In this document: positions 26,869 to 38,795 of the stretch, in pieces
How positions within the stretch are numbered: the first letter of the stretch is position 1
Layout: each line of letters begins with the position of its first letter
NCBI GenBank assembly: GCA_024330215.1
Contig: JANDLU010000003.1
Location: 57,074 to 121,073, forward strand
From: Candidatus Gaiellasilicea maunaloa
Lineage (GTDB): Bacteria; Actinomycetota; Thermoleophilia; Gaiellales; Gaiellaceae
Direction of reading: 5' to 3'
Length of the DNA stretch: 64,000 nucleotides
The notes under the pieces: model-generated
Told to the model about the DNA's origin: nothing
The model's input: only the letters and a program-made list of their open reading frames with translations
The model's database searches: none
Translations under genes and position numbers: made by a program

Positions 26869-27588
26869 GTGGCCGGAGCCGACCTGATCGCGCGTCTGAT
26901 CCAGGCGCCCGAGCTAGCGGCAATCCTGCTCGACGTCGACGGCGTGCTCGCGCCGATCGTCGACGTCCCCCACGAAGCGGCCGTGCCCGAGGAGACGAGG
27001 ACCGAGCTGAGACGTCTGCACGCCCGCTATGGGCTCGTCGCCTGCATCAGCGGCCGCGCCGGCCCGGACGCGCGCCGCGTCGTCGGGCTCGACGAGCTCG
27101 TCTACGTCGGCGAGCACGGGCTCGAGCTCGTACCGGGGGCGGCGAACTGGAGCGAGCGCCTGCTCGGCCTGGCGGCGACCGTCGACTGGGAGGATGTGGA
27201 GCGCAAGCCGCTGACCGTCACCTTCCACTACCGCCGCGCCGACGACGAGTCGGAGGCGGTTCGCTTTCTCGAAGCGGTGGCCACGCGTGCTCGGGCCGAG
27301 GGGCTCGTCGCTCGCTTCGGCCGCAAGGTGCTCGAGCTGCGCCCGCCGCTCGACGCCCACAAGGGCACGGCGGTCGCGCATCTGCTCGACGAGCGAGGGC
27401 TCGGGCGCGCGCTCTACGCGGGCGACGACACCACAGACCTCGACGCGTTTCGCGCGATCGCGAGCCTCGAGGTCGGCGTGGCGGTCGCGGTGGACTCGGC
27501 CGAGGGGCCGGCAGCGCTCAGAGAGGCGGCGGACATGGTCGTCGGAAGCACCTCCGCTTTCCTCGACGAGGTGCTGCGAGAGCTCTAG
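26869..27588 (+). CDS. otsB: Trehalose-6-phosphate phosphatase
   Basis: The 239-residue protein (GTG start) has the HAD motifs of OtsB: nucleophile region ILLDVDGVLAPIVDVPHEA, CISGRAGPDAR with VYVGEHGLEL, the lysine region PLDAHKGTAVAHLL, and GDDTTDLDAF. It removes phosphate from trehalose-6-phosphate, giving the compatible solute trehalose. No otsA is beside it. It is convergent with the ABC ATPase gene (4-base overlap of the ends). Confidence 0.9.
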   Translation: MAGADLIARLIQAPELAAILLDVDGVLAPIVDVPHEAAVPEETRTELRRLHARYGLVACISGRAGPDARRVVGLDELVYVGEHGLELVPGAANWSERLLGLAATVDWEDVERKPLTVTFHYRRADDESEAVRFLEAVATRARAEGLVARFGRKVLELRPPLDAHKGTAVAHLLDERGLGRALYAGDDTTDLDAFRAIASLEVGVAVAVDSAEGPAALREAADMVVGSTSAFLDEVLREL

Positions 27589-28604
27589 GCCCTGACCGCG
27601 AGCTCCGTCTCCGCGTCGAAGAGATGCAGCTTGTCGCGCGGGATCGAGAACCGCTGCTCCACACCCGTGGGAACACGATCCTCGACCGGAAGCTTCGCGA
27701 GCAGCTTCTCGTCGCCCGCGGCGAGATGGACGAGTTGCTCGTCGCCCAGGTACTCGACCACCTCGACGGTTGCCTGGAAGTAGGCGGCATCCCCGTTCCC
27801 GCCGCCGAGGACGACATGCTCGGGACGGAATCCCGCCAACTGCCCACCGGTACCCGCTCCCTTGACGAAGCCGGCGGGAACGAGGTTCATTGCCGGCGAG
27901 CCGATGAAGCGCGCCACGAAGACGTTCGTCGGCTTGGTGTAGAGCTGCTCGGGCGTCCCCGCCTGTTGGAGCACGCCCTGCTTCATCACCGCGATCCGGT
28001 CGCCCATCGTCATCGCCTCGACCTGATCGTGCGTGACGTAGACCGTCGTCACCTTCAGGTCGCGCTGCAGCTTGAGGATCTCTGCCCGCGTATTCACACG
28101 CAGCGCGGCATCGAGGTTCGAGAGGGGCTCGTCCATCAGAAACGCTTTGGGCTGCCGCACGATCGCGCGTCCGAGCGCGACCCGCTGCCGCTGCCCTCCG
28201 GAGAGCTGCTTCGGCTTGCGCTTGATCAGTTCGGTCATGTCGAGCACCTCGGCCGCCTTCGAGACACGTCGATTGATTTCGTCCTTCGGTGTGCGCACGT
28301 TTCGGAGGCCGAAGGCGAGATTGTCGTAGACCGTCATGTGCGGGTACAGGGCGTACGACTGGAAGACCATCGCGACGTCGCGGGCGCCTGGAGCCAGGTT
28401 GTTGACGACGCGATCGCCGATCAGGATCCGTCCGGAGGTCGTCTCCTCGAGGCCTGCGAGCATCCGGAGCGCGGTGCTCTTCCCGCAGCCCGATGGGCCG
28501 ACGAGGACGAGGAACTCGCCGTCGCTGATCTCGAGCGTCAGCTCGTCGACGGCGACGGTATCGTCGAATCGCTTGGTGACGTTCTCGAACGTGACTGTTG
28601 CCAT
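27585..28604 (-). CDS. MalK/UgpC-type sugar ABC transporter ATPase
   Basis: The ATG at 28604 gives 339 residues: Walker A GPSGCGKSTALRML, signature LSGGQRQRVALGRAIV, Walker B FLMDEPLSNLDAALR, and the switch YVTHDQVEAMTMGDRIAVM. The C-terminal 110 residues form the TOBE/OB regulatory fold (GFRPEHVVLGG..., VEVVEYLGDEQLVHL). It energises the permeases encoded upstream. The track fuses it to a noise frame. Its start overlaps the DUF624 stop (catca), so it is the last gene of the carbohydrate-uptake operon; MalK-type ATPases often serve several sugar transporters. Confidence 0.93.
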   Translation of the reverse strand: MATVTFENVTKRFDDTVAVDELTLEISDGEFLVLVGPSGCGKSTALRMLAGLEETTSGRILIGDRVVNNLAPGARDVAMVFQSYALYPHMTVYDNLAFGLRNVRTPKDEINRRVSKAAEVLDMTELIKRKPKQLSGGQRQRVALGRAIVRQPKAFLMDEPLSNLDAALRVNTRAEILKLQRDLKVTTVYVTHDQVEAMTMGDRIAVMKQGVLQQAGTPEQLYTKPTNVFVARFIGSPAMNLVPAGFVKGAGTGGQLAGFRPEHVVLGGGNGDAAYFQATVEVVEYLGDEQLVHLAAGDEKLLAKLPVEDRVPTGVEQRFSIPRDKLHLFDAETELAVRA

Positions 28605-29254
28605 CAGGATCCGGCCTCCAGGATCGGGTCGTCTGGGAGTGCGAAGCGTGCCGCGGCGAGAAACGAGTAGGCGACGGTGAGCGTCAGCAGTGGAAGCACG
28701 GCGGCAGCCGCGCCGAGCGCGTTGACAAGCAGCAGGAAGAACGCAAGCACGATCGAGGACAGCGGCCGGCGGGCCAGGGCGAAGCCCGACTTGCGCAGCA
28801 CCTCCCGCAGGGGCCGCTCGCGCTCGTCGATCGCGATCGGCCAGAGCTGCACCTGGAAGACCACGAAGAGCGCGAGCACGTAGGCGACAAGGAACGCAAG
28901 CGGCCAGCCGAACGAGCCGGCGCCGGCGTACGAGCGGATCGCGATCGTGCCCGCGAGGAACACGAGGATCGCGATGAGCGAAAGCTCGAGCCCTCGTCGC
29001 CACTGGAGCCGCAGCCCTTCGACCGCGCACCGGAGCGAGAGCTCCTCCTCGTGCACGACGCGGACGGCACAGTGCATGAGGGCCGCGGCGAGCGGGCCCA
29101 GCAAGAGCGCCAGCGCCAGCGCCGACCGCGTGTAGCTCGCCGCGACGAGCAGGCTCAGAACGGCCACCGAGAGGAGGCTGTTCAGGACGACGAAGCGCCA
29201 TGACTGCTCGTAGAAGTCGCGGACCGCGGTGCGCATCGCGTCGCCGATCCTCAT
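28604..29254 (-). CDS. DUF624/YesL-like membrane protein of the sugar ABC operon
   Basis: The ATG at 29254 gives 216 residues with about five membrane helices (FVVLNSLLSVAVLSLLVAASY, ALALALLLGPLAAALMH, LIAILVFLAGTIAI, WPLAFLVAYVLALFVVFQVQLWPI, IVLAFFLLLVNALGAAAAVLPLLTLTVAYSFL). The N-terminal RTAVRDFYEQSWRF and the internal LWPIAIDE match the DUF624 layout. Such proteins often accompany carbohydrate ABC transporters, role unknown. It overlaps both neighbours by 3-4 bases. Confidence 0.75.
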   Translation of the reverse strand: MRIGDAMRTAVRDFYEQSWRFVVLNSLLSVAVLSLLVAASYTRSALALALLLGPLAAALMHCAVRVVHEEELSLRCAVEGLRLQWRRGLELSLIAILVFLAGTIAIRSYAGAGSFGWPLAFLVAYVLALFVVFQVQLWPIAIDERERPLREVLRKSGFALARRPLSSIVLAFFLLLVNALGAAAAVLPLLTLTVAYSFLAAARFALPDDPILEAGS

Positions 29255-30117
29255 CCCTTGACTCCGCTGGCGACGACGCCGGCGACGAAGTAGCGCTGGA
29301 AGAAGACGTAGATCAGCGCGATCGGCAGGATCGCGAGCGCGCTCGCCGCCATCAGCTGCGGCCAGAGGGTCTGGTACTGGAACCGGAACTGCGCGAGGCC
29401 GAGCTGGATCGTGTAGACGTCCGGGTCGCCGAAGCCGAGGATGATCAGCGACCAGAAGAAGTCGTTCCACATGCCCTGGAACGTGAGGATCGTGACCGCG
29501 GCGAGCGCCGGAGCCGCGAGCGGCAGCATCACCTTCCAGTAGGTCTTGAGGAAGCCCGCGTTGTCGAGCTTGGCCGCCTCCTCGAAGTCCTTCGGAATCG
29601 TGAGAAAGTACTGGCGCATCAGGAAGAGCTCGGTCGGAAGCACGAGGTGGATCGCGATGAAGCCGAAGAAGCTGCCGACGAGCCCCCAGTTCGTGAGCAT
29701 CTGGAACACGGGGACGAGGCGGAGCTGATCGGGGATCATCAACGTCGCCAGCACGAGCATGAACAGAACCTCCCGGCCGGGAAAGCGCAGCCGTGCGAAC
29801 GCGTAGCCGCCTAACGACGCGAGCACGAGGTTTGCGACCGTGATCGCGCCCGCGAGGATGAAGCTGTTGAGCGCGAAGCGCGCGAAGTTGAAGTCCGTCA
29901 GCACCTCGCGAAACGCACGCAGGCTGGGGTTGTCGGGGACGAGGTCGAATCCCGTCGTCTCGGGCAGCGACTTCAGCGCAGTCGAGATCGTCCAGAGGAA
30001 GGGGACGAAGAAGAGCGCCGAGACGAGCACGAGCAGCACGTAGACGAGCAGGCGACGAGCCCGGTAGGAGAGCGGCCGCCGGGGGATGGCGGAGGTGCTG
30101 GCAACGTCGACCGCCAT
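29251..30117 (-). CDS. Sugar ABC transporter permease, MalG type
   Basis: The ATG at 30117 gives 288 residues with six helices and the EAA loop DFEEAAKLDNAGFLKTYWKVMLPLAAPALAAV that docks on the ATPase. The N terminus (RRLLVYVLLVLVSALFFVPFLWTISTALK) is typical of CUT1 family inner subunits. Start and stop overlap the flanking genes (malF TGATG start; ATGA with DUF624). The track extends it falsely to 30558. Confidence 0.93.
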   Translation of the reverse strand: MAVDVASTSAIPRRPLSYRARRLLVYVLLVLVSALFFVPFLWTISTALKSLPETTGFDLVPDNPSLRAFREVLTDFNFARFALNSFILAGAITVANLVLASLGGYAFARLRFPGREVLFMLVLATLMIPDQLRLVPVFQMLTNWGLVGSFFGFIAIHLVLPTELFLMRQYFLTIPKDFEEAAKLDNAGFLKTYWKVMLPLAAPALAAVTILTFQGMWNDFFWSLIILGFGDPDVYTIQLGLAQFRFQYQTLWPQLMAASALAILPIALIYVFFQRYFVAGVVASGVKG

Positions 30118-31025
30118 CAGGCGGTGTCGGGTCGACCGAAGAGAAGGCGCTGCACCAGCGTCACGGTGAAGATCAGGACGAAGAGCACGATCCCCATCGC
30201 CGCGGCGTAGCCGAAGCGGATGTCCCCGATCGCCGTCCGATAGAGGTAGAGGACGGCCGTCAGGGTCGAGGAGTTCGGTCCGCCCGACCCGTTCGAAACG
30301 ATAAACGCCTGGTCGAAGACCTTGAGCGCCCCGACCACCGAGACGACGCCGACGAAGAAGTGGCCCGGCTTGAGCAGCGGAAAGGTGATCTTCCAGAACG
30401 TTCGCCAGGCGCCGGCGCGGTCGATGGCCGCAGCCTCGTAGACGTCGGTCGGAATCGCCTGAAGCGAGGCGAGGTAGAACAGCATCATCGTCCCGGAGGT
30501 CGTCCACGCGTTCAGCCCGACGATCGAGAAGAGCGCCGTGTCGGAGTCGCCGAACCACGGCCGGTTGCCGCCGATGATCGCGTTCAGCAGGCCGTCAGCG
30601 GAGAGGATGTAGATCGCAATCGCGGTGATCGCCGCCGACGAGGCGAGCGAGGGAAAATAGAACGCGGAGCGGAAGAACGTCTTGCCGCGGATGCCGGCGT
30701 TGACGATCACCGCCATCGCGAGCCCGAGGGCCATTTGGATCGGCACCACGAGCGCCGTGTACAGCAGCGTGTTCTTCAGCGCCTTGTGGAAGATCTCGTC
30801 GCGGTAGAGCTCGCGGTAGTTCTCGAACCCGAGCGTCTCGATCTTCCCGAACACGCCCCAGTCGTAGCGGCTGATGTAGACCGCGTAGGCGAGGGGCCAG
30901 ATGAAGAAGAGCAGGAAGACCCCCATCGGCACGAGGATAAACGCGTAGGCGACGAGCGCCTCGCGAAGCTTGGCCGACCCGACCGAGCGGTGCCGCGGCG
31001 CGTTCTCGACTGTGGCCAAGCTCAC
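30117..31025 (-). CDS. Sugar ABC transporter permease, MalF type
   Basis: The 302-residue protein has six helices (LVAYAFILVPMGVFLLFFIWPLAYAVYIS ...) and the EAA motif YEAAAIDRAGAWRTFWKITFPLLKPG. It pairs with the MalG-type permease in a CUT1 importer. It follows the binding-protein gene after a 70-base gap that holds a strong hairpin, so its level is probably lower than that of the binding protein. Confidence 0.93.
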   Translation of the reverse strand: MSLATVENAPRHRSVGSAKLREALVAYAFILVPMGVFLLFFIWPLAYAVYISRYDWGVFGKIETLGFENYRELYRDEIFHKALKNTLLYTALVVPIQMALGLAMAVIVNAGIRGKTFFRSAFYFPSLASSAAITAIAIYILSADGLLNAIIGGNRPWFGDSDTALFSIVGLNAWTTSGTMMLFYLASLQAIPTDVYEAAAIDRAGAWRTFWKITFPLLKPGHFFVGVVSVVGALKVFDQAFIVSNGSGGPNSSTLTAVLYLYRTAIGDIRFGYAAAMGIVLFVLIFTVTLVQRLLFGRPDTA

Positions 31026-31095: not shown

Positions 31096-32337
31096 CTAGC
31101 GCAGGGCCTCGTTCGCGGCCTTGTCGACCTTAGTCAGCATCGCGGCCACGGACTGCTTTCGCTCGATCACCGCGGACAGCTCGTTGTTCGCGATATCGAT
31201 CACCTTCGTGAACGTCGGCGCGAACTGCCACGGGCGGGCAGCAGGGGCAGCGGCGATGAAGTTCTCGCGGCCCGCCGGTGCCCTCACGTCGCTACGGGAC
31301 GGGAGCGCGAGCCCCTTCGACGTCCACGTCTTCATCCCGGGCTGGCCGACGAGGTAACGGATCAGCTGCCACGCAGCATCCTTGTTCTTGGAGTCGCGCG
31401 CCATCGAGTAGCTGACGGTGAAGGCGAGATTCCCCTCCTGCTTGCCGCGGATCATCTTGTTCACCGTGAAGCGGACGTCCGGGAACGTCTCGGCCATGAA
31501 CGGCACGACCCAGTTGCCCTCGAAGATGATCGCCGCCTTCGCCTTGCCGAGCGCCTCACCGCACCAGCCGACGCCGAGCTGAGCCGGCGTGCCGGCGAGG
31601 CCCTGGTTGATCAGCGTCACATACCACTCGGCGGCCCGCCGGACGGCGGTCGTGTTGACCGTCGACCTCGTCTTCGAGGCGTTCAGGAACGTGCCCCCGT
31701 TCTGGTAGACGAACGCGAGCAGGCGATCCCAGCTCGGTGAGAGACAGATGGGCCGGCCGCCGGGAACCTTCCCCTGCAGCTTCCGGGCCGCGGCTCTGAG
31801 CTCATCCCAGGTCTTCGGCGCTTTCGTGCCCGCCGCTGCGAGGAGGCGGTTGTTCGTCTCCATCGCGAGCGGAGACCAGTCCTTCGGGAAGCCGTAGGTC
31901 TTGCCATCGGGGCCCTTGAACCCTCTCAGCAGCGATGGGAAGAACGCCGACGTCTTGAGCTTGCTCTTCGCAACGTACGGGTCGAGCGGCTCGAGCAGCC
32001 GCTGCTTGATCCAATCCGGCGCCACATTCGAATCGACGTAGAAGACGTCGGCGGGCGTGCGCGCGGCGAACTTCGCCAGCATCGCGGCCGGGTAGTCACC
32101 GGAGATCGGCGCGTAGTTCACCTTGACGCTCGGGAACGTCTTCTCGAAGCCGCGGATGACCTCTTTGAGCAGCTTCGTCTCGGTCGGCGACGAAGCCCAG
32201 CCCGAGAGCGTGACCTCCCCGGTTGCCGCGACGCCCGTCGTCCGATCGGTTGTTCCCTGGCTCGTGCTCGCGGCGATGCCCGCGAAGACCACGAGGCCGA
32301 GGAGCAGAGCCGGGAGTAGGAGCCTGTAACGCTTCAT
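31096..32337 (-). CDS. Carbohydrate ABC transporter solute-binding protein (CUT1)
   Basis: The ATG at 32337, behind GGAGGG, gives 413 residues with a signal peptide (KRYRLLLPALLLGLVVFAGIAAST) and no cysteine lipobox. The family-1 extracellular binding fold is shown by GEVTLSGWASSPTETKLLKEVIRGFEKTFPSVKVNYAPISGDY, LAAAGTKAPKTWDELRAAARKL and a late AWQLIRYLVGQPGMKTW. It is the promoter-proximal gene of the uptake operon and lies under a LacI-type operator. Substrate is unknown; the neighbouring glucosidase and the alpha-galactosidase remains suggest an alpha-linked oligosaccharide. The track start is 9 bases upstream. Confidence 0.92.
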   Translation of the reverse strand: MKRYRLLLPALLLGLVVFAGIAASTSQGTTDRTTGVAATGEVTLSGWASSPTETKLLKEVIRGFEKTFPSVKVNYAPISGDYPAAMLAKFAARTPADVFYVDSNVAPDWIKQRLLEPLDPYVAKSKLKTSAFFPSLLRGFKGPDGKTYGFPKDWSPLAMETNNRLLAAAGTKAPKTWDELRAAARKLQGKVPGGRPICLSPSWDRLLAFVYQNGGTFLNASKTRSTVNTTAVRRAAEWYVTLINQGLAGTPAQLGVGWCGEALGKAKAAIIFEGNWVVPFMAETFPDVRFTVNKMIRGKQEGNLAFTVSYSMARDSKNKDAAWQLIRYLVGQPGMKTWTSKGLALPSRSDVRAPAGRENFIAAAPAARPWQFAPTFTKVIDIANNELSAVIERKQSVAAMLTKVDKAANEALR

Positions 32338-32388
32338 CTGGTGCACCCTCCCTGGTAGACCTCATTTGTCTCGAGACCGACAATCGTC

Positions 32389-32417
32389 TTAGATGACGAG
32401 TGTGGAACCGCTTCCAA
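32389..32417 (-). promoter_or_regulatory. Promoter with LacI-type operator, binding-protein/debranching gene divergence
   Basis: On the minus strand TTGGAA (32412-32417), a 17-base spacer and ATCTAA (32389-32394) form a plausible promoter for the ABC operon. The 14-base TGGAAGCGGTTCCA (32403-32416) overlaps the -35 and spacer. It differs in one base from the perfect TGGAAGCGCTTCCA over the lacI start, so the nearby LacI protein is the likely repressor. A weaker TAAAAC hexamer (32433-32438) could serve the divergent gene. Confidence 0.65.
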
Positions 32418-32513: not shown

Positions 32514-34604
32514 GTGCCGCTCACGATCCTCGAGGGCTCGACCTTCTGCATTTCCGATGAGCAGGGCGACATCGGCGCCGCCGCCGACGGGCTCTTCGCC
32601 GCCGATACCCGCTACCTCTCGCGGCTCGTACTCACGCTCGGCGGCAAGCGGCCGCTGCTTCTCACGGGCCGCGCGCTCGTCCCCGCCGAGGCGAGCTTCG
32701 TGTTGCGGAATCCGCGTCTGCCGGGCCTCGGCCCCGACACGCTCGCGATCCTGCGGCACCGGACGGTGGCGGACGGGCTACGCGAGCACGTCGAGGTGCG
32801 CAACCTCACCGCGCAGAGCGTCGCGGTCACGCTCGAGCTCGAGCTAGGCTGCGACTTCGCGGACATCTTCACGGTCAAACGGCACGACTTCGGCGTCAAC
32901 GGCGACGGGCCCCCGGCACCCGCTCCGGCCAACGCAGTCCCTGAGCTCCGTGCCGGCGGAACCGAGCTCCGCTTCGAGGACGCCGACGCGTCCGGAGCCG
33001 AGCTTCAGGTCGTCCTCTCGAAACCCGCTGCGGTGAGCGGGGGCCGGCTCGGCTACGCGCTCGAGCTCGGCCCGCATGAGCGCTGGAGCCTCGAGCTCGA
33101 GGTCGTCCCCTCCGCCGAAGGCGCGCTCGGCTCTCCTACCGGGGCCGCCGCCAGGTTGGAGGCCGGGCGGCAGAGCGCAGCCGCGTCGCTCGCCGCCTGG
33201 CAGTCGAGCGTCCCCACCCTGACCGCCTCGTGGGTCGATCTCGATCGGAGCTACCGCCAGGCGGTGCGGGACATCGCCGCTCTGCGGATGCGCGTCGGCG
33301 ACACGGGCGAGCTGATCGCGGCCGGCATGCCGTGGTTCATGACCGTCTTCGGCCGCGACACGCTGATCGCGAGCCTACAGACGCTGCCGCTCGGCGAAGG
33401 CCTCTCGCGCGCCGGGCTGCTCGCGCTCGCCGCGCTTCAGGCAGACGCCGACGATCCCTCGATCGACGCCGAACCCGGCAAGATCGTGCACGAGATCCGG
33501 CGTGGCAAGGCGGCGCAGAGGTGGTTCGCGCGGTACTACGGCACCGTCGACGCAACACCGCTCTTCCTCGTCCTTCTCTCCGAGCACTGGCGCTGGACGC
33601 GCGACGACGCCCTCGTCGAGCGGCTGCAGCCGAACGCGCTGCGAGCGCTCGAGTGGATCGACGTCCACGGCGACTCTGACGGTGACGGCTTCGTCGAGTA
33701 CGAGCGTCGCGCTCCGCAGGGGATCGCCAACCAGAGCTGGAAGGACTCGCACGACTCGCAGCTCTTCCACGACGGCACGCAGGCCCGCGGCGCGATCGCC
33801 GCGGGTGAGGTGCAGGGCTACGTGTACGACGCAAAGCTTCGCCTGGCGGAGCTCGCCCGCGAGGTCTGGCGTGATCCGACACTCGCGACGCGACTCGAAG
33901 CGGAGGCGGCGCTGCTCCGCGAGCGGTTCGACGCGGCGTTCTGGTGCGAGCGCGGCGGCGAGCACACCTACGCACTTGCGCTCGACGGCGAGAAGCGACC
34001 GGTGAACTCGCTCACCTCGAACATCGGGCATCTCCTCTGGAGCGGGATCGTCCTCGACGAGCGCGTCGACACGATCGTCGCCCAGCTTGCCGGCGACTCC
34101 CTCTGGTCGGGGTGGGGCGTGCGCACGATGGCGGCGGACGACGCCGGCTACAACCCCCTCGCCTACCACGATGGCACCGTCTGGCCGCACGACAACTCCC
34201 TGATCGCATGGGGCCTCGTTCGGGCCGGGCGCCACGACGAGGCGCTCCGAATCGTGCGCGCGATGCTCGAGGCGGCGTCGTACTTCGACTACCAGCTACC
34301 CGAGGTGTTCGCCGGTTTCGCCCGCTCCGAGGTCGCGCACCCGATCGTCTATCCCACCGCGTCGCGGCCGCAGGCCTGGGCGGCAGGAACCGTCGTGCTG
34401 CTGCTCCGGCTACTGCTCGGGCTCGAGCCCGACCCAACTGCGCGCCGGCTCGTGACGACGGCGCCCGGACGCCTGCCGGACTGGCTCGGAACGCTCCAGC
34501 TCGACCGCATTTCGGCTTTGGGAACGACGTGGTCGGCGGCGGTGGAGGACGGTGCCGCGCGCGTCTGGGAGAACGACGGCGAGAGCCTGCTACCTGCGAG
34601 GTGA
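32514..34604 (+). CDS. Glycogen-debranching-type amylo-alpha-1,6-glucosidase
   Basis: The 696-residue protein (GTG start) has the bacterial debranching N-terminal beta domain (TFCISDEQGDIGAAADGLFAADTRYLSRLVLTLGG) over about residues 1-200. A (alpha/alpha)6 catalytic domain follows (MPWFMTVFGRDTLIASLQTLPLGEGLSRAGLLAL, IANQSWKDSHDSQLFHDG, WGVRTMAADDAGYNPLAYHDGTVWPHDNSLIAWGL). GRDTLI and the late DGTVWPHDN carry the expected acidic residues of the GH63/GH133-like clan. No signal peptide: it should act in the cytoplasm on imported oligosaccharide or glycogen. It is divergent from the ABC operon and shares its operator region. Confidence 0.9.
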   Translation: MPLTILEGSTFCISDEQGDIGAAADGLFAADTRYLSRLVLTLGGKRPLLLTGRALVPAEASFVLRNPRLPGLGPDTLAILRHRTVADGLREHVEVRNLTAQSVAVTLELELGCDFADIFTVKRHDFGVNGDGPPAPAPANAVPELRAGGTELRFEDADASGAELQVVLSKPAAVSGGRLGYALELGPHERWSLELEVVPSAEGALGSPTGAAARLEAGRQSAAASLAAWQSSVPTLTASWVDLDRSYRQAVRDIAALRMRVGDTGELIAAGMPWFMTVFGRDTLIASLQTLPLGEGLSRAGLLALAALQADADDPSIDAEPGKIVHEIRRGKAAQRWFARYYGTVDATPLFLVLLSEHWRWTRDDALVERLQPNALRALEWIDVHGDSDGDGFVEYERRAPQGIANQSWKDSHDSQLFHDGTQARGAIAAGEVQGYVYDAKLRLAELAREVWRDPTLATRLEAEAALLRERFDAAFWCERGGEHTYALALDGEKRPVNSLTSNIGHLLWSGIVLDERVDTIVAQLAGDSLWSGWGVRTMAADDAGYNPLAYHDGTVWPHDNSLIAWGLVRAGRHDEALRIVRAMLEAASYFDYQLPEVFAGFARSEVAHPIVYPTASRPQAWAAGTVVLLLRLLLGLEPDPTARRLVTTAPGRLPDWLGTLQLDRISALGTTWSAAVEDGAARVWENDGESLLPAR

Positions 34605-34644
34605 GGCCGAGCCGACCGCTCCGACCCGACACCGCCGCTCGAAT

Positions 34645-34984
34645 CCTGACGGCGGGCTTCGAGCCGGGCTTTGGACGGCACCGTTCCTCGTGAGCGAGCG
34701 GAGCGCGCTCGCGCGAGAGCATCCCGGAGTGGCTGGTCGGCGGCGCCGATGCCGGCCGGAACTGGCACCAGCGGCTCCGGGTGCTCGATGTCACGAATCC
34801 CGGCGCTGCCGCCCATCTCGAGCCGTCTACGCGACGCTCACACATTGGGGGTTCAGCTTCCACAAGCTCGACTCCCTCTACGCCGGTGCGCTCGACGGGC
34901 GCCAGCACGCGGACTGTTCTCCGATCGAGGTCGGCCGCGCGGGGCTGCGCCTGATCCGTCGCGCGGCGGGGCCGGAAGCCACGC
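34645..34984 (+). pseudogene. Frameshifted remnant of a GH36 alpha-galactosidase
   Basis: Three pieces in two frames read like consecutive parts of the GH36 catalytic barrel. GLRAGLWTAPFLVSERSALAREHP ends near 34722 and is followed by EWLVGGADAGRNWHQRLRVL (+1 frame, to about 34817). The first frame then resumes with YATLTHWGFSFHKLDSLYAG and the following GLRLIRRAAGPEA. In functional enzymes these follow as GFRAGLW.APFLV..., EHPEWLV... and F.KLDFLYAGAL. The N-terminal half and everything after GPEA are missing, and the remains run into the lacI 3' end. Two compensating frameshifts plus both truncations mark it as dead. Confidence 0.75.
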
Positions 34985-36028
34985 CTAACGCTTTCGCGGG
35001 CCCGTCGATCTGCGGACGACGAGCTCGAGCGGCAGCGTCTCGGTGCGGACGGCGAACGGCTCGCCCGCCAGCGCCTGGAGCAACAGCTCGGCGCCGCGCC
35101 GACCACTCTCGAACAACGGCTGGCGCACCGTCGTGAGCCCCACGTAGGAGGCCGCCTCGATGTCGTCGAAACCGACGACGGAGAGCTCGTCGGGAACGCG
35201 GATACCCAGGTCCCGTGCTGCCTCGAGCACTCCCAGCGCCTGCGTGTCGGAGGCGGCGAAGATCGCGGTCGGCGGCTCGGGCAGTCGCAAGAGCTCCTCC
35301 GCGATGCTCCGCGCGACATGACGGCTCTGCGTTCCCTGGCGCACGTACCCGGGCTGCCGCTCGAGCCCGGCGCGGGCGAGTGCCCGGAGATACCCCTCGG
35401 TCCGGTCGCGACTCGAGCGGAACCGGAAGCGGTCCGGCGGTTTGTCTCCGACGAATGCGATCCGCCGGTGGCCGAGGTCGAGGAGGTAGCGGGTGGCGAC
35501 CTCGCCCCCTGCGACGTCGTCGGACACGACGCACGGCAAGGAAGGATGTGGCGCGTCGACGAGCACGCAGGGAATCTGCGCCGCCTCGAGGCGGGCGAGC
35601 TCGGCATCGGGGGGGACAAGCGAGACCGCGAGCAATCCGTCCGCCCTGTCTCCTCTGCCGAACATGTCGAAGGCCCGCCGCCGACGGTCCGGCGACTCGA
35701 CGTCGAACAGCGCCAGGTCGTAGGGCGAGGCCTCGAGCCCGGCCACGATGCCGCGCACGCGCTCGACCGCCGAGTCGCTGGTGAAGAACGGGACGACCAC
35801 CCCGATCACGAACGTACGGCGGAGGGAGAGGTTGCGCGCGACGGAGCTCGGCCGGTAGTCCAGCTCGAGGATGGCGGCGAGCACTCGCTCCCGGGTTGGC
35901 CCGGCGACGTTCGGATGGCCGTTGACGACCCGCGAGACGGTCGCCAAGCCTACGCCCGCGCGCGCCGCCACGCCGGCGATCGTCGCCGGCTGTCCGCTTT
36001 TGGGAGGGGTGTCTGGAAGCGCTTCCAT
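34985..36028 (-). CDS. LacI family transcriptional regulator of the carbohydrate locus
   Basis: The ATG at 36028 ([13 protein letters not shown]) gives 347 residues. The helix-turn-helix and hinge helix are [54 protein letters not shown]. The periplasmic-binding-like sensor follows ([69 protein letters not shown]). It should release DNA on binding a sugar. A perfect palindrome covers its own start codon, so it represses itself. The track start seven codons upstream would leave the operator inside the gene. Confidence 0.92.
36014..36027. promoter_or_regulatory. LacI-type operator over the lacI start codon
   Basis: TGGAAGCGCTTCCA is a perfect 14-base palindrome with the CG centre typical of LacI-family operators. 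It begins inside the fifth codon of the regulator and ends one base short of its start codon's first base. Its near twin lies at 32403, before the ABC operon. Autorepression is a strong inference. Confidence 0.75.
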
Positions 36029-36067
36029 GCCGCGTCCGCACTTTCCCACCCGGTGACCGCCGAGTCA

Positions 36068-36100
36068 AACCGGGGAGCAGGGCGCGCCCGCTCCCCGGTT
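36068..36100 (-). terminator. GC-rich hairpin after the DHA2 exporter gene
   Basis: AACCGGGGAGC (36068-36078) and GCTCCCCGGTT (36090-36100) are perfect 11-base arms 12 bases past the exporter stop. There is no long T tract, as is usual in such high-GC genomes. It separates the exporter from the lacI promoter region. Confidence 0.65.
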
Positions 36101-36112
36101 GGACGCGCGTGA

Positions 36113-37555
36113 CTAGGCGGCGTCGAGCGCCGGCACGGCGTCGACCGCGTCCTCGCTCTCGAGCTCGTCGCGGCGGATCAGCGTGATCGCGACCACGATC
36201 CCGAGTGCGCCGACGACCAGCGCTGCCCAGAACGCGCCCTGGAAGCCGTCGACCAGGCCGACCGGCAGGGCGGCGCCGTCTTCCACGGAGCTCGTCGTAC
36301 GGCTGGTCGCGATCGCGGAGAGCGCGGCGATCCCGAGCGCGCCCCCGATCTGCTGCGAGGTGTTGAACAGGCCGGAAGCGAGACCCGCCTCGGCCGGCTC
36401 GACCCCCGCGAGCGCGGCGATCGAGATCGGCACGAACGAGAAGCCGAGCGCAATCCCGATCAGGAGGAAGCCCGGCAGGAGGTCGCCGAGGTACGAGCCG
36501 CCGACCGAGACCTGGGTGAAGTAGACGAGCCCGGCCGTCAGGAAGGCCATGCCCGCGATCATGACGGGCTTGACGCCCACCTTGGTCACGAGTTGGGCGG
36601 CGACCGCCGACCAGAGGATCGCCGTGCCGGCCACCGCCAGATAGGCAACACCGGTCTTCATCGCCGAGTAGCCGAGCACCTGCTGCATGTAGAGCGTCAG
36701 CATCAGGAACATGGCGAACATCGCCGTGCCGAGAATGAACCCGGCGACGTTCGCGCCAAGCACGGTGCGGATCTTGAGGATCCCGAAGCGCATCAGCGGC
36801 TCGGGATGGCGTAGCTCCCAGACGACGAACGCGCCGAGGAGGGCGAGTGCGCCGGCGAAGATCGCCCACGTCGTCCCCGAGGTCCAACCGAAGTCGTTCG
36901 CCTCCGTGATCCCGTAGACGAGCGCCATCAGCCCTCCGGTCACGAGCACGGCGCCCGGCGCGTCGAAGCGCTTGACCTTGGCGTCCTTGCTCTCGCCGAG
37001 GAGAAGCGGCGTCAAGGCCAGGCCGGCGATCCCGACCGGAATGTTGACGAAGAAGATCCACTCCCAGGAGAGCGCGTCGGTGAGGACGCCGCCGAGCAGA
37101 ACGCCCGCCGCGGCGCCGAAGCCGCCGACGGCACCCCAGACCCCGAGCGCGAGATTGCGTTCCTTGCCCTCGGCGAACGTCGTCGTCAGGATCGAGAGCG
37201 CCGCCGGGGAGATCACCGCCGCGCCGAGGCCCTGCAGCGCCCGCGCAGCGATCAGCGAGCCCTCGCTCCACGCCAGGCCGGCGAGCAACGAAGCGACGGT
37301 GAAGAGGATCAGGCCGGCGATGAAGATCCGTCGTCGGCCGAGGATGTCGGCGAGCCTGCCGCCGAGGAGCAGGAACCCACCGAAGACGAGCGCGTAGGCG
37401 CTGATCACCCATTGCAGGTTCTCCTGCGAGAAGCCCAGGTCGACCTTGATCGACGGCAGGGCGACGTTCACGATCGCGATATCGAGGACGACCATGAACT
37501 GCACCGCGCTGAGAAGCGCCAGTGCGAACCATCTCTTGTCAGTCGAAGCAGCCAT
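36113..37555 (-). CDS. DHA2-family (EmrB/QacA) drug:H+ antiporter, 14 TMS
   Basis: The 480-residue membrane protein has the DHA2 motifs: motif D1 FMVVLDIAIVNVALPSI, motif A GGRLADILGRRRIFIAGL, and motif C of antiporters (GVLLGGVLTDALSWEWIFFVNIPVG). About 14 hydrophobic helices can be counted. It should export a toxic compound using the proton gradient. It is divergent from an HxlR regulator and has its own 17-spacer promoter over the shared palindrome, so it is probably induced by the compound sensed by that regulator. A ribosome-binding site (AAGGGAAAG) precedes the ATG. Confidence 0.93.
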   Translation of the reverse strand: MAASTDKRWFALALLSAVQFMVVLDIAIVNVALPSIKVDLGFSQENLQWVISAYALVFGGFLLLGGRLADILGRRRIFIAGLILFTVASLLAGLAWSEGSLIAARALQGLGAAVISPAALSILTTTFAEGKERNLALGVWGAVGGFGAAAGVLLGGVLTDALSWEWIFFVNIPVGIAGLALTPLLLGESKDAKVKRFDAPGAVLVTGGLMALVYGITEANDFGWTSGTTWAIFAGALALLGAFVVWELRHPEPLMRFGILKIRTVLGANVAGFILGTAMFAMFLMLTLYMQQVLGYSAMKTGVAYLAVAGTAILWSAVAAQLVTKVGVKPVMIAGMAFLTAGLVYFTQVSVGGSYLGDLLPGFLLIGIALGFSFVPISIAALAGVEPAEAGLASGLFNTSQQIGGALGIAALSAIATSRTTSSVEDGAALPVGLVDGFQGAFWAALVVGALGIVVAITLIRRDELESEDAVDAVPALDAA

Positions 37556-37587
37556 TTCTTTCCCTTCTGCGGTATGCTGAGCTTGCG

Positions 37588-37632
37588 AAGTTACACCATC
37601 TGCTTGCTAAATGCAAGTTAGCACTGTAGATT
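37588..37632. promoter_or_regulatory. Divergent promoters with central palindrome (HxlR operator)
   Basis: Toward hxlR: TTGCTA (37604-37609), 17 bases, TAGATT (37627-37632). Toward the exporter: TTGCAT (minus strand, 37611-37616), 17 bases, TAACTT (37588-37593). Between them GCTAA-ATGCAAG-TTAGC (37606-37622), with an inner CTTGC/GCAAG pair, covers both -35 boxes. One bound dimer could shut both genes. This patch is clearly more AT-rich than the surroundings. Confidence 0.75.
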
Positions 37633-37664
37633 GTGAAGTACAGGTGTAGATCAGGGGAAGTGAA

Positions 37665-38279
37665 GTGAAGCGCTACGACCAGTACTGCCCCGTCGCCCAC
37701 TCGCTCGGCCTCGTCGGCGAGCGCTGGTCGCTGCTCGTCGTCCGTGACCTCATCGACGGCCCGAAGCGCTACACGGACCTCGTCGAGGGGCTGCCCGGAA
37801 TCGGCACGAACATCCTCGCGTCACGACTCAGGGACCTCGAGGCCGGCGGAATCATCCGGAAGACGAAGCTGCCGCCGCCGGCGGCCTCTACGGTCTACGA
37901 GCTGACGGAGTGCGGCCACGACCTCCGGCCCGTCCTCCACGAGCTCGCCCGCTGGGGAGCGCGTACGCTCGGCCCGCCGCCGCTCGATGCGCTCCGGCCC
38001 GGTTGGCTCAAGAACGCGCTCCAGATCGCACTCTCACCCGTCGCGAACGAAGGTCGGCTCGCCTTCCGGGTCGGCGAGGAGGAGGCGTCGGTCGTGGACG
38101 GCCAGTCGTCGGCCGGGATCGTCGCGGACGCGGACGTCCTTGTCGAGACAGACGCCGCGGGCTTCTACCACTTGCTCGTGAACCGCGAGCTCGAGGGCGT
38201 GCGGGTGGAAGGCGACGCGGAGCTGCTCGAGCGCGTCGTGAACGCGGTTGCGACCCAGCCGCTTCCCGCGTCCATCTGA
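37665..38279 (+). CDS. HxlR-family transcriptional regulator with C-terminal SCP2-like domain
   Basis: The GTG at 37665 gives 204 residues. The N-terminal HxlR winged helix reads KRYDQYCPVAHSLGLVGERWSLLVVRDLIDGPKRYTDLVEGLPGIGTNILASRLRDLEAGGIIRK, with the typical redox-capable cysteine near the start. Residues 115-204 (ALQIALSPVANEGRLAFRVGEEEASVV ... VNRELEGVRVEGDAELLERVV) resemble a sterol-carrier-type ligand pocket, so small hydrophobic ligands may act as inducers. It is divergent from the DHA2 exporter. Confidence 0.9.
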   Translation: MKRYDQYCPVAHSLGLVGERWSLLVVRDLIDGPKRYTDLVEGLPGIGTNILASRLRDLEAGGIIRKTKLPPPAASTVYELTECGHDLRPVLHELARWGARTLGPPPLDALRPGWLKNALQIALSPVANEGRLAFRVGEEEASVVDGQSSAGIVADADVLVETDAAGFYHLLVNRELEGVRVEGDAELLERVVNAVATQPLPASI

Positions 38280-38287
38280 CGCTGCGC

Positions 38288-38740
38288 CTACTCGGCCCGT
38301 CGCGGCACATCGTAGATGAACCAGAGCTGATCGCCTGTCTGCGAGCCCGTAGGAGCCTGGGCGGTGATCTGTCCGATGTCGGGGTACTCGGCGACCTCGG
38401 GCGAGCCGAGGGTGGAAACCACGACGAACCGTGCAGGACCGTCCGTCTCGTTCGTCAGCCCGTGCGCGCCGTCAGGCCCGACTGGAAAGTGAACGACATC
38501 GCCTTCGGAGAGCATCTTCGTGCCTTCCGAGGTGCGCAAACTCGGACGGCCGTGGAGGACTACCAGGAGTTCCTCCCACCGATGATGGAAGTGGTAGACG
38601 AGGAAGTTCCCAGGATCGAGCTCATAGACGGTCGCGCCCAAACCGTCGCCTCGGGGCAAGCGTTTGCTCCGGCCTCCGCCGCCCGACCAGTCATCACCCT
38701 GCTCTCCCCACTCGTCCGACCAGATGTTGCTGTCGGTCAT
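38288..38740 (-). CDS. Cupin-domain protein
   Basis: The 150-residue protein has one cupin barrel: YELDPGNFLVYHFHHRWEELLVVLHGRPSLRTSEGTKMLSEGDVVHFPVGPDGAHGLTNE. Motif 1 has two histidines and a glutamate (FHHRWEE) and motif 2 a histidine (GPDGAHG), so it could bind a metal. It is convergent with hxlR (8 bases between the stop codons). Substrate unknown. Confidence 0.88.
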   Translation of the reverse strand: MTDSNIWSDEWGEQGDDWSGGGGRSKRLPRGDGLGATVYELDPGNFLVYHFHHRWEELLVVLHGRPSLRTSEGTKMLSEGDVVHFPVGPDGAHGLTNETDGPARFVVVSTLGSPEVAEYPDIGQITAQAPTGSQTGDQLWFIYDVPRRAE

Positions 38741-38795
38741 GTGCGCAATCTACGCCCGCCACCCTCGTTCACCTAACCTCGCTCGCGCGGAGCGC

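Follow-up and report, generated by a model that had tools for sequence, protein, structure and literature searches.

TmGalA of Thermotoga maritima is a GH36 alpha-galactosidase of solved structure (PDB 1zy9, 5m0x), whose catalytic nucleophile is Asp327 (PMC6089974). A shorter gene of this type is carried by G032, the soil actinobacterial MAG AC_19 (VAWZ01000057.1), which belongs to the same family as the organism studied here; it encodes an open 434-residue GH36 protein (L044:13178-14482, minus strand), and a PF02065 scan of 129 order-level genomes gave its only match above cut-off in that genome. Here we describe a related sequence in the window, a 64,000-nucleotide stretch of the Candidatus Gaiellasilicea maunaloa genome, for which the original prediction was a decayed GH36 gene inside a LacI/ABC carbohydrate locus.

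The setting is as predicted, as the neighboring LacI, MalK, permease, sugar-binding protein (SBP) and glucosidase genes confirm. The locus runs from OtsB (plus strand) through MalK, a small membrane protein, permease 2, permease 1 and SBP (all minus strand) to a GDE-type glucosidase on the plus strand, followed by the GH36 relic (plus), LacI and an MFS gene (both minus). The relic begins 29 bases after the glucosidase ends and lies between the stop of that gene and the convergent lacI; the glucosidase, SBP and LacI genes are all open and intact. The gene for the small membrane protein overlaps that of permease 2, and well-covered relatives keep it together with the transporter. No RNA genes were found near the relic, a single tRNA-Lys lying far off at 1545-1619.

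Features of the GH36 remnant and its surroundings (window coordinates)
Feature	Position	Strand	Basis or remark
OtsB-like trehalose phosphatase	26869..27588	+	Pfam 101 bits; syntenic in G009, G011, G012
MalK-type ATPase	27585..28583	-	orthologous loci carry ~70-80% identical copies
Small membrane protein in the operon, without Pfam match	28604..29470	-	conserved with transporter
ABC permease 2	29251..30117	-	kept in orthologous loci
ABC permease 1	30117..31025	-	kept in orthologous loci
Sugar-binding protein (SBP) of ABC transporter	31096..32346	-	Pfam; solved-structure comparison
LacI operator-like palindrome TGGAACCGCTTCCA, in the SBP–glucosidase gap	32403..32416	.	one of two exact genome matches
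GDE-type glucosidase, intact (GDE_N_bis + amylo-alpha-1,6-glucosidase-like)	32514..34604	+	Pfam 142.8 bits; PDB 7vma E 1e-82
GH36 (TmGalA-like) pseudogene remnant, whole	34634..34983	+	tblastn/phmmer/tree
Remnant piece A, AARILTAGFEPG	34634..34669	+	ordered-piece alignment to G032 GH36
Remnant piece B, LWTAPFLVSERSALAREHP, other frame than A	34669..34725	+	
Remnant piece C, EWLVGGADAGRNWHQRLRVLDVTNPGAAAHLE	34727..34822	+	
Remnant piece D, AVYATLTHWGFSFHKLDSLYAG...GPEAT; Asp codon 34870-34872 aligns with TmGalA nucleophile Asp327	34822..34983	+	
LacI-family regulator, intact, convergent with remnant	34985..36049	-	Pfam; 69% to G099/G095 LacI
LacI operator-like palindrome TGGAAGCGCTTCCA, at lacI start	36014..36027	.	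other exact genome match

The remnant comprises 350 bp in four pieces that alternate between two frames (f2/f1/f2/f1), with changes near 34669, 34726 and 34822. The three peptides on which the prediction rested were recovered on the plus strand of the glucosidase–lacI gap, in their predicted order and two frames; the predicted extent (34645-34984) was in the right place, though the real remnant is slightly longer and has four pieces. Joined in sequence order, they yield 116 residues, corresponding approximately to residues 200–315 of the 434-residue G032 protein; ~199 residues are missing from the N-terminal end and ~119 from the C-terminal end, and the middle quarter of the gene is left. No complete GH36 reading frame is thus present, and the stretch is well supported, from its sequence, as a pseudogene of the GH36 family rather than a working member. 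A search of 34450-35100 for direct repeats of ≥14 nt, as insertion marks at the remnant edges, found none.

Used as a query, the intact G032 protein retrieves the remnant in the remnant's own genome with E = 3.3e-23, and the ordered 116-residue reading is 68% identical to the G032 protein (E ~1e-46, against a small set of retrieved loci). Because both matches are significant, the homology is not due to chance. The ordered remnant also matches TmGalA (E = 1.9e-20) over a barrel segment in matching order, confirming that the pieces are neighboring parts of the GH36 barrel. In a tree of 40 sequences, the remnant, G032 and the Chloroflexi soil MAG L081 are grouped with support of 100/100, the terminal branch being 0.40 for the remnant versus 0.20 for G032. 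Together with the missing ends and frame changes, these results uphold the prediction of a decayed GH36 gene. A single-frame fragment of the remnant scores 10.7 bits with Pfam Melibiase, below the cut-off of 27, and the intact G032 relative reaches 32.4 bits. The name beta-L-arabinopyranosidase, offered by NCBIfam, was rejected, as the fragment and its intact homologues score a marginal 24–42 bits against a cut-off of 1100.

The nucleophile aspartate is kept in the remnant, where KLD (34864-34872) aligns with KID of TmGalA, and Ser replaces the Phe of the KxDF motif common to the sampled homologues. The acid/base aspartate motif (RIGPD in G032, equivalent to Asp387 of TmGalA) is present in five of five intact homologues aligned; it lies past the end of the remnant and is absent. 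At conserved columns the remnant deviates in 6 of 29 positions, with no excess of substitutions over G032 or L081 (6 of 33 each). Decay at the level of substitutions is thus mild, which would fit a fairly recent inactivation.

Short-type GH36 genes are sparse in these lineages. With the G032 protein as query, matches were found in 3 of 399 class genomes, namely the window's own, G032 and a contig-edge fragment in G081. The transporter, counted by an SBP match of E ≤ 1e-60, is present in 12 of 103 family genomes, of which two have a detected GH36 gene and ten do not; several of the compared genomes are incomplete drafts, and these absences are provisional. When GH36 presence was set against that of the transporter in the family genomes, a Fisher test gave p = 0.035, or p = 0.013 without the G081 fragment, though related genomes are not independent and the association is only suggestive. 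The sole other genome of the same genus (69% complete) gave no match to GH36, glucosidase or SBP. A search restricted to the GH36 family found no second gene of this kind in the window's 97%-complete genome; the predicted loss of the hydrolase is borne out to this extent, and the organism can probably no longer hydrolyze alpha-galactosides by way of GH36.

The prediction also allowed that a relative might keep the gene intact, and this holds for G032, where it lies immediately 3' of MalK in the orthologous ABC operon (MalK 70%, permease 1 65% and SBP 55% identical to those of the window). In G032, frame changes are seen in SBP and permease 2, and a LacI-like gene matches over its C-terminal part only (L044:8480-8800, L044:10960-11180 and L160:4252-4500); each may reflect decay or draft errors. 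In the Chloroflexi MAG L081, GH36 is convergent with a LacI gene, with no glucosidase of the window's type nearby. An intact GH36 between glucosidase and lacI, which was expected in relatives, was sought and found in none. More widely, short-type GH36 genes are often close to other ABC sugar transporters: a MalK-like match lies within 5 kb of them in 23 of 79 loci, and permeases, ~24–36% identical to those of the window, in 14–15; the family as a whole occurs in imported-sugar loci. A Gfo/Idh/MocA or zinc-dependent dehydrogenase directly adjoins short GH36 genes at L083:8839-9990, L081:8864-9928 and L086:8913-9992, and these neighbors may point to an unusual sugar substrate.

Comparison with orthologous transporter loci bears on whether GH36 ever belonged to the operon. 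In G009, G011 and G012 the transporter is flanked by OtsB and TSUP genes, and in G009 and G011 the glucosidase directly adjoins a PLP decarboxylase; in the window these two genes are 4.2 kb apart, the decarboxylase lying beyond 38796. The intervening 4.2-kb block (34605-38795), comprising the GH36 relic at its left edge, LacI, MFS, HxlR and cupin genes, is absent from G009 and G011. It is therefore possible, if the less probable reading, that this block is an addition in which GH36 arrived as a fragment or never served the transporter; this would still make it a GH36 pseudogene, and contests only its former membership of the operon. That GH36 could be such a passenger is in keeping with its different placement in G032, and with a transporter tree in which the window's genome (G000) is unresolved and not paired with G032. 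Since G032 instead groups with G095 and G099, in which no GH36 was detected, the gene is rare and patchy relative to the transporter. Against a passenger origin, GH36 adjoins the orthologous transporter in G032, and the block is not wholly foreign, as LacI is a true partner of the transporter: its 69%-identical orthologues neighbor the transporter in G099 and G095, and an operator-like site precedes SBP and the glucosidase.

The LacI protein has the helix-turn-helix and sugar-binding domains of its family (Pfam), and palindromic putative operators lie near its candidate targets. The 3.85-Mb genome has just two exact copies of the palindrome TGGAANCGNTTCCA, which bracket the interval from glucosidase through remnant to lacI. 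In G099 and G095 the gap between LacI and SBP holds a near copy that agrees at 13 of 14 positions; there the LacI orthologue is divergent from SBP and the glucosidase is found 3' of MalK. Transporter loci with no LacI orthologue detected have a best match of 11 of 14. Because the operator pair is unique and its variants accompany LacI in G095 and G099, the most likely targets of LacI are the transporter, the glucosidase and its own gene, and these probably still form a working local regulon. The position of the remnant between the two palindromes ties it to the same regulon. For an uncultured soil actinobacterium, the operator pair marks out a small sugar regulon open to testing, and is the more useful by-product of the analysis.

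Our analysis thus favors, with considerable confidence, a history in which an intact TmGalA-like GH36 gene once lay between glucosidase and lacI and was lost through end deletions and frame changes. A short gene of ~434 codons would formerly have occupied the plus strand of this gap, although the ancestral order glucosidase–GH36–lacI is reconstructed with no relative found to have an intact GH36 there. It would most likely have been transcribed from a promoter ahead of the glucosidase, with control by LacI through the operator at 32403; we lean towards such co-transcription on the grounds of position, as the relic immediately follows the glucosidase and shares its strand. Both ends (~199 and ~119 codons) would then have been deleted and at least three frame changes acquired, in an order that we can only infer, leaving a dead 350-bp relic beside an intact transporter, glucosidase and LacI. 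In itself this is ordinary gene decay in a known enzyme family.

The further proposals that the operon once handled alpha-galactosides, and that the relic gives a first clue to the substrate of the transporter, fare less well. The operon holds an alpha-galactosidase only as a remnant. Among solved structures, SBP is most like a putative maltose-binding protein and other proteins that bind sugars, with low similarity, and the glucosidase is most like an archaeal-type glycogen debranching enzyme (7vma). In 10 of the 12 transporter genomes no GH36 was detected, the transporter is accompanied in relatives by a GDE-type glucosidase and OtsB, and the position of GH36 differs between its two hosts. 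The relic thus offers a weak hint of substrate, and a role of the present transporter in alpha-galactoside uptake is not established. We read the relic as a dead accessory gene beside what is probably an alpha-glucoside-type locus, whose core substrate would be alpha-glucoside-like, with GH36 as an optional side activity. This serves as a warning that the substrate of a transporter should not be named from a dead neighboring gene. It is unlikely, although conceivable, that the LacI/ABC/glucosidase core has repeatedly gained and lost GH36, with reciprocal decay in two soil lineages; if so, the hydrolase is broken and the transporter intact here, while in G032 the hydrolase is intact and the transporter damaged.

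That assembly or sequencing indels interrupt an otherwise complete gene, an alternative raised in the original prediction itself, is very improbable. The genome is a 200-contig draft, and the frame changes in SBP and permease 2 of G032 suggest that draft errors may occur in such data; however, a complete gene would need ~1300 bp and the intact flanking genes leave 380 bp between them, while these neighbors are open across hundreds of codons. As both GH36 ends are missing between intact abutting genes, indel errors cannot be the sole cause. It is scarcely credible that a short functional peptide, or a recoded (frameshifted) piece of the enzyme, is still produced, as the 194-codon open frame that overlaps part of the remnant also runs through non-homologous stretches and the antisense of lacI, three frame changes fall within ~190 bp, and most of the barrel is absent along with the acid/base region.

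Set against known systems, the remnant resembles TmGalA in the order of its barrel segments and in its nucleophile aspartate, and differs in lacking the N-terminal part, the Asp387 region and the C-terminal end, and in being split between frames. The AC_19 gene shares 68% identity and adjoins an orthologous ABC transporter, but is intact and placed 3' of MalK, in an operon whose own SBP and permease 2 genes bear frame changes. The LacI-regulated loci of G095 and G099 share the regulator (69%), the order of transporter genes, an operator-like palindrome before SBP and a GDE-type glucosidase; they differ from the window in that no GH36 was detected and in that lacI is divergent from SBP, whereas here it lies downstream of the glucosidase.
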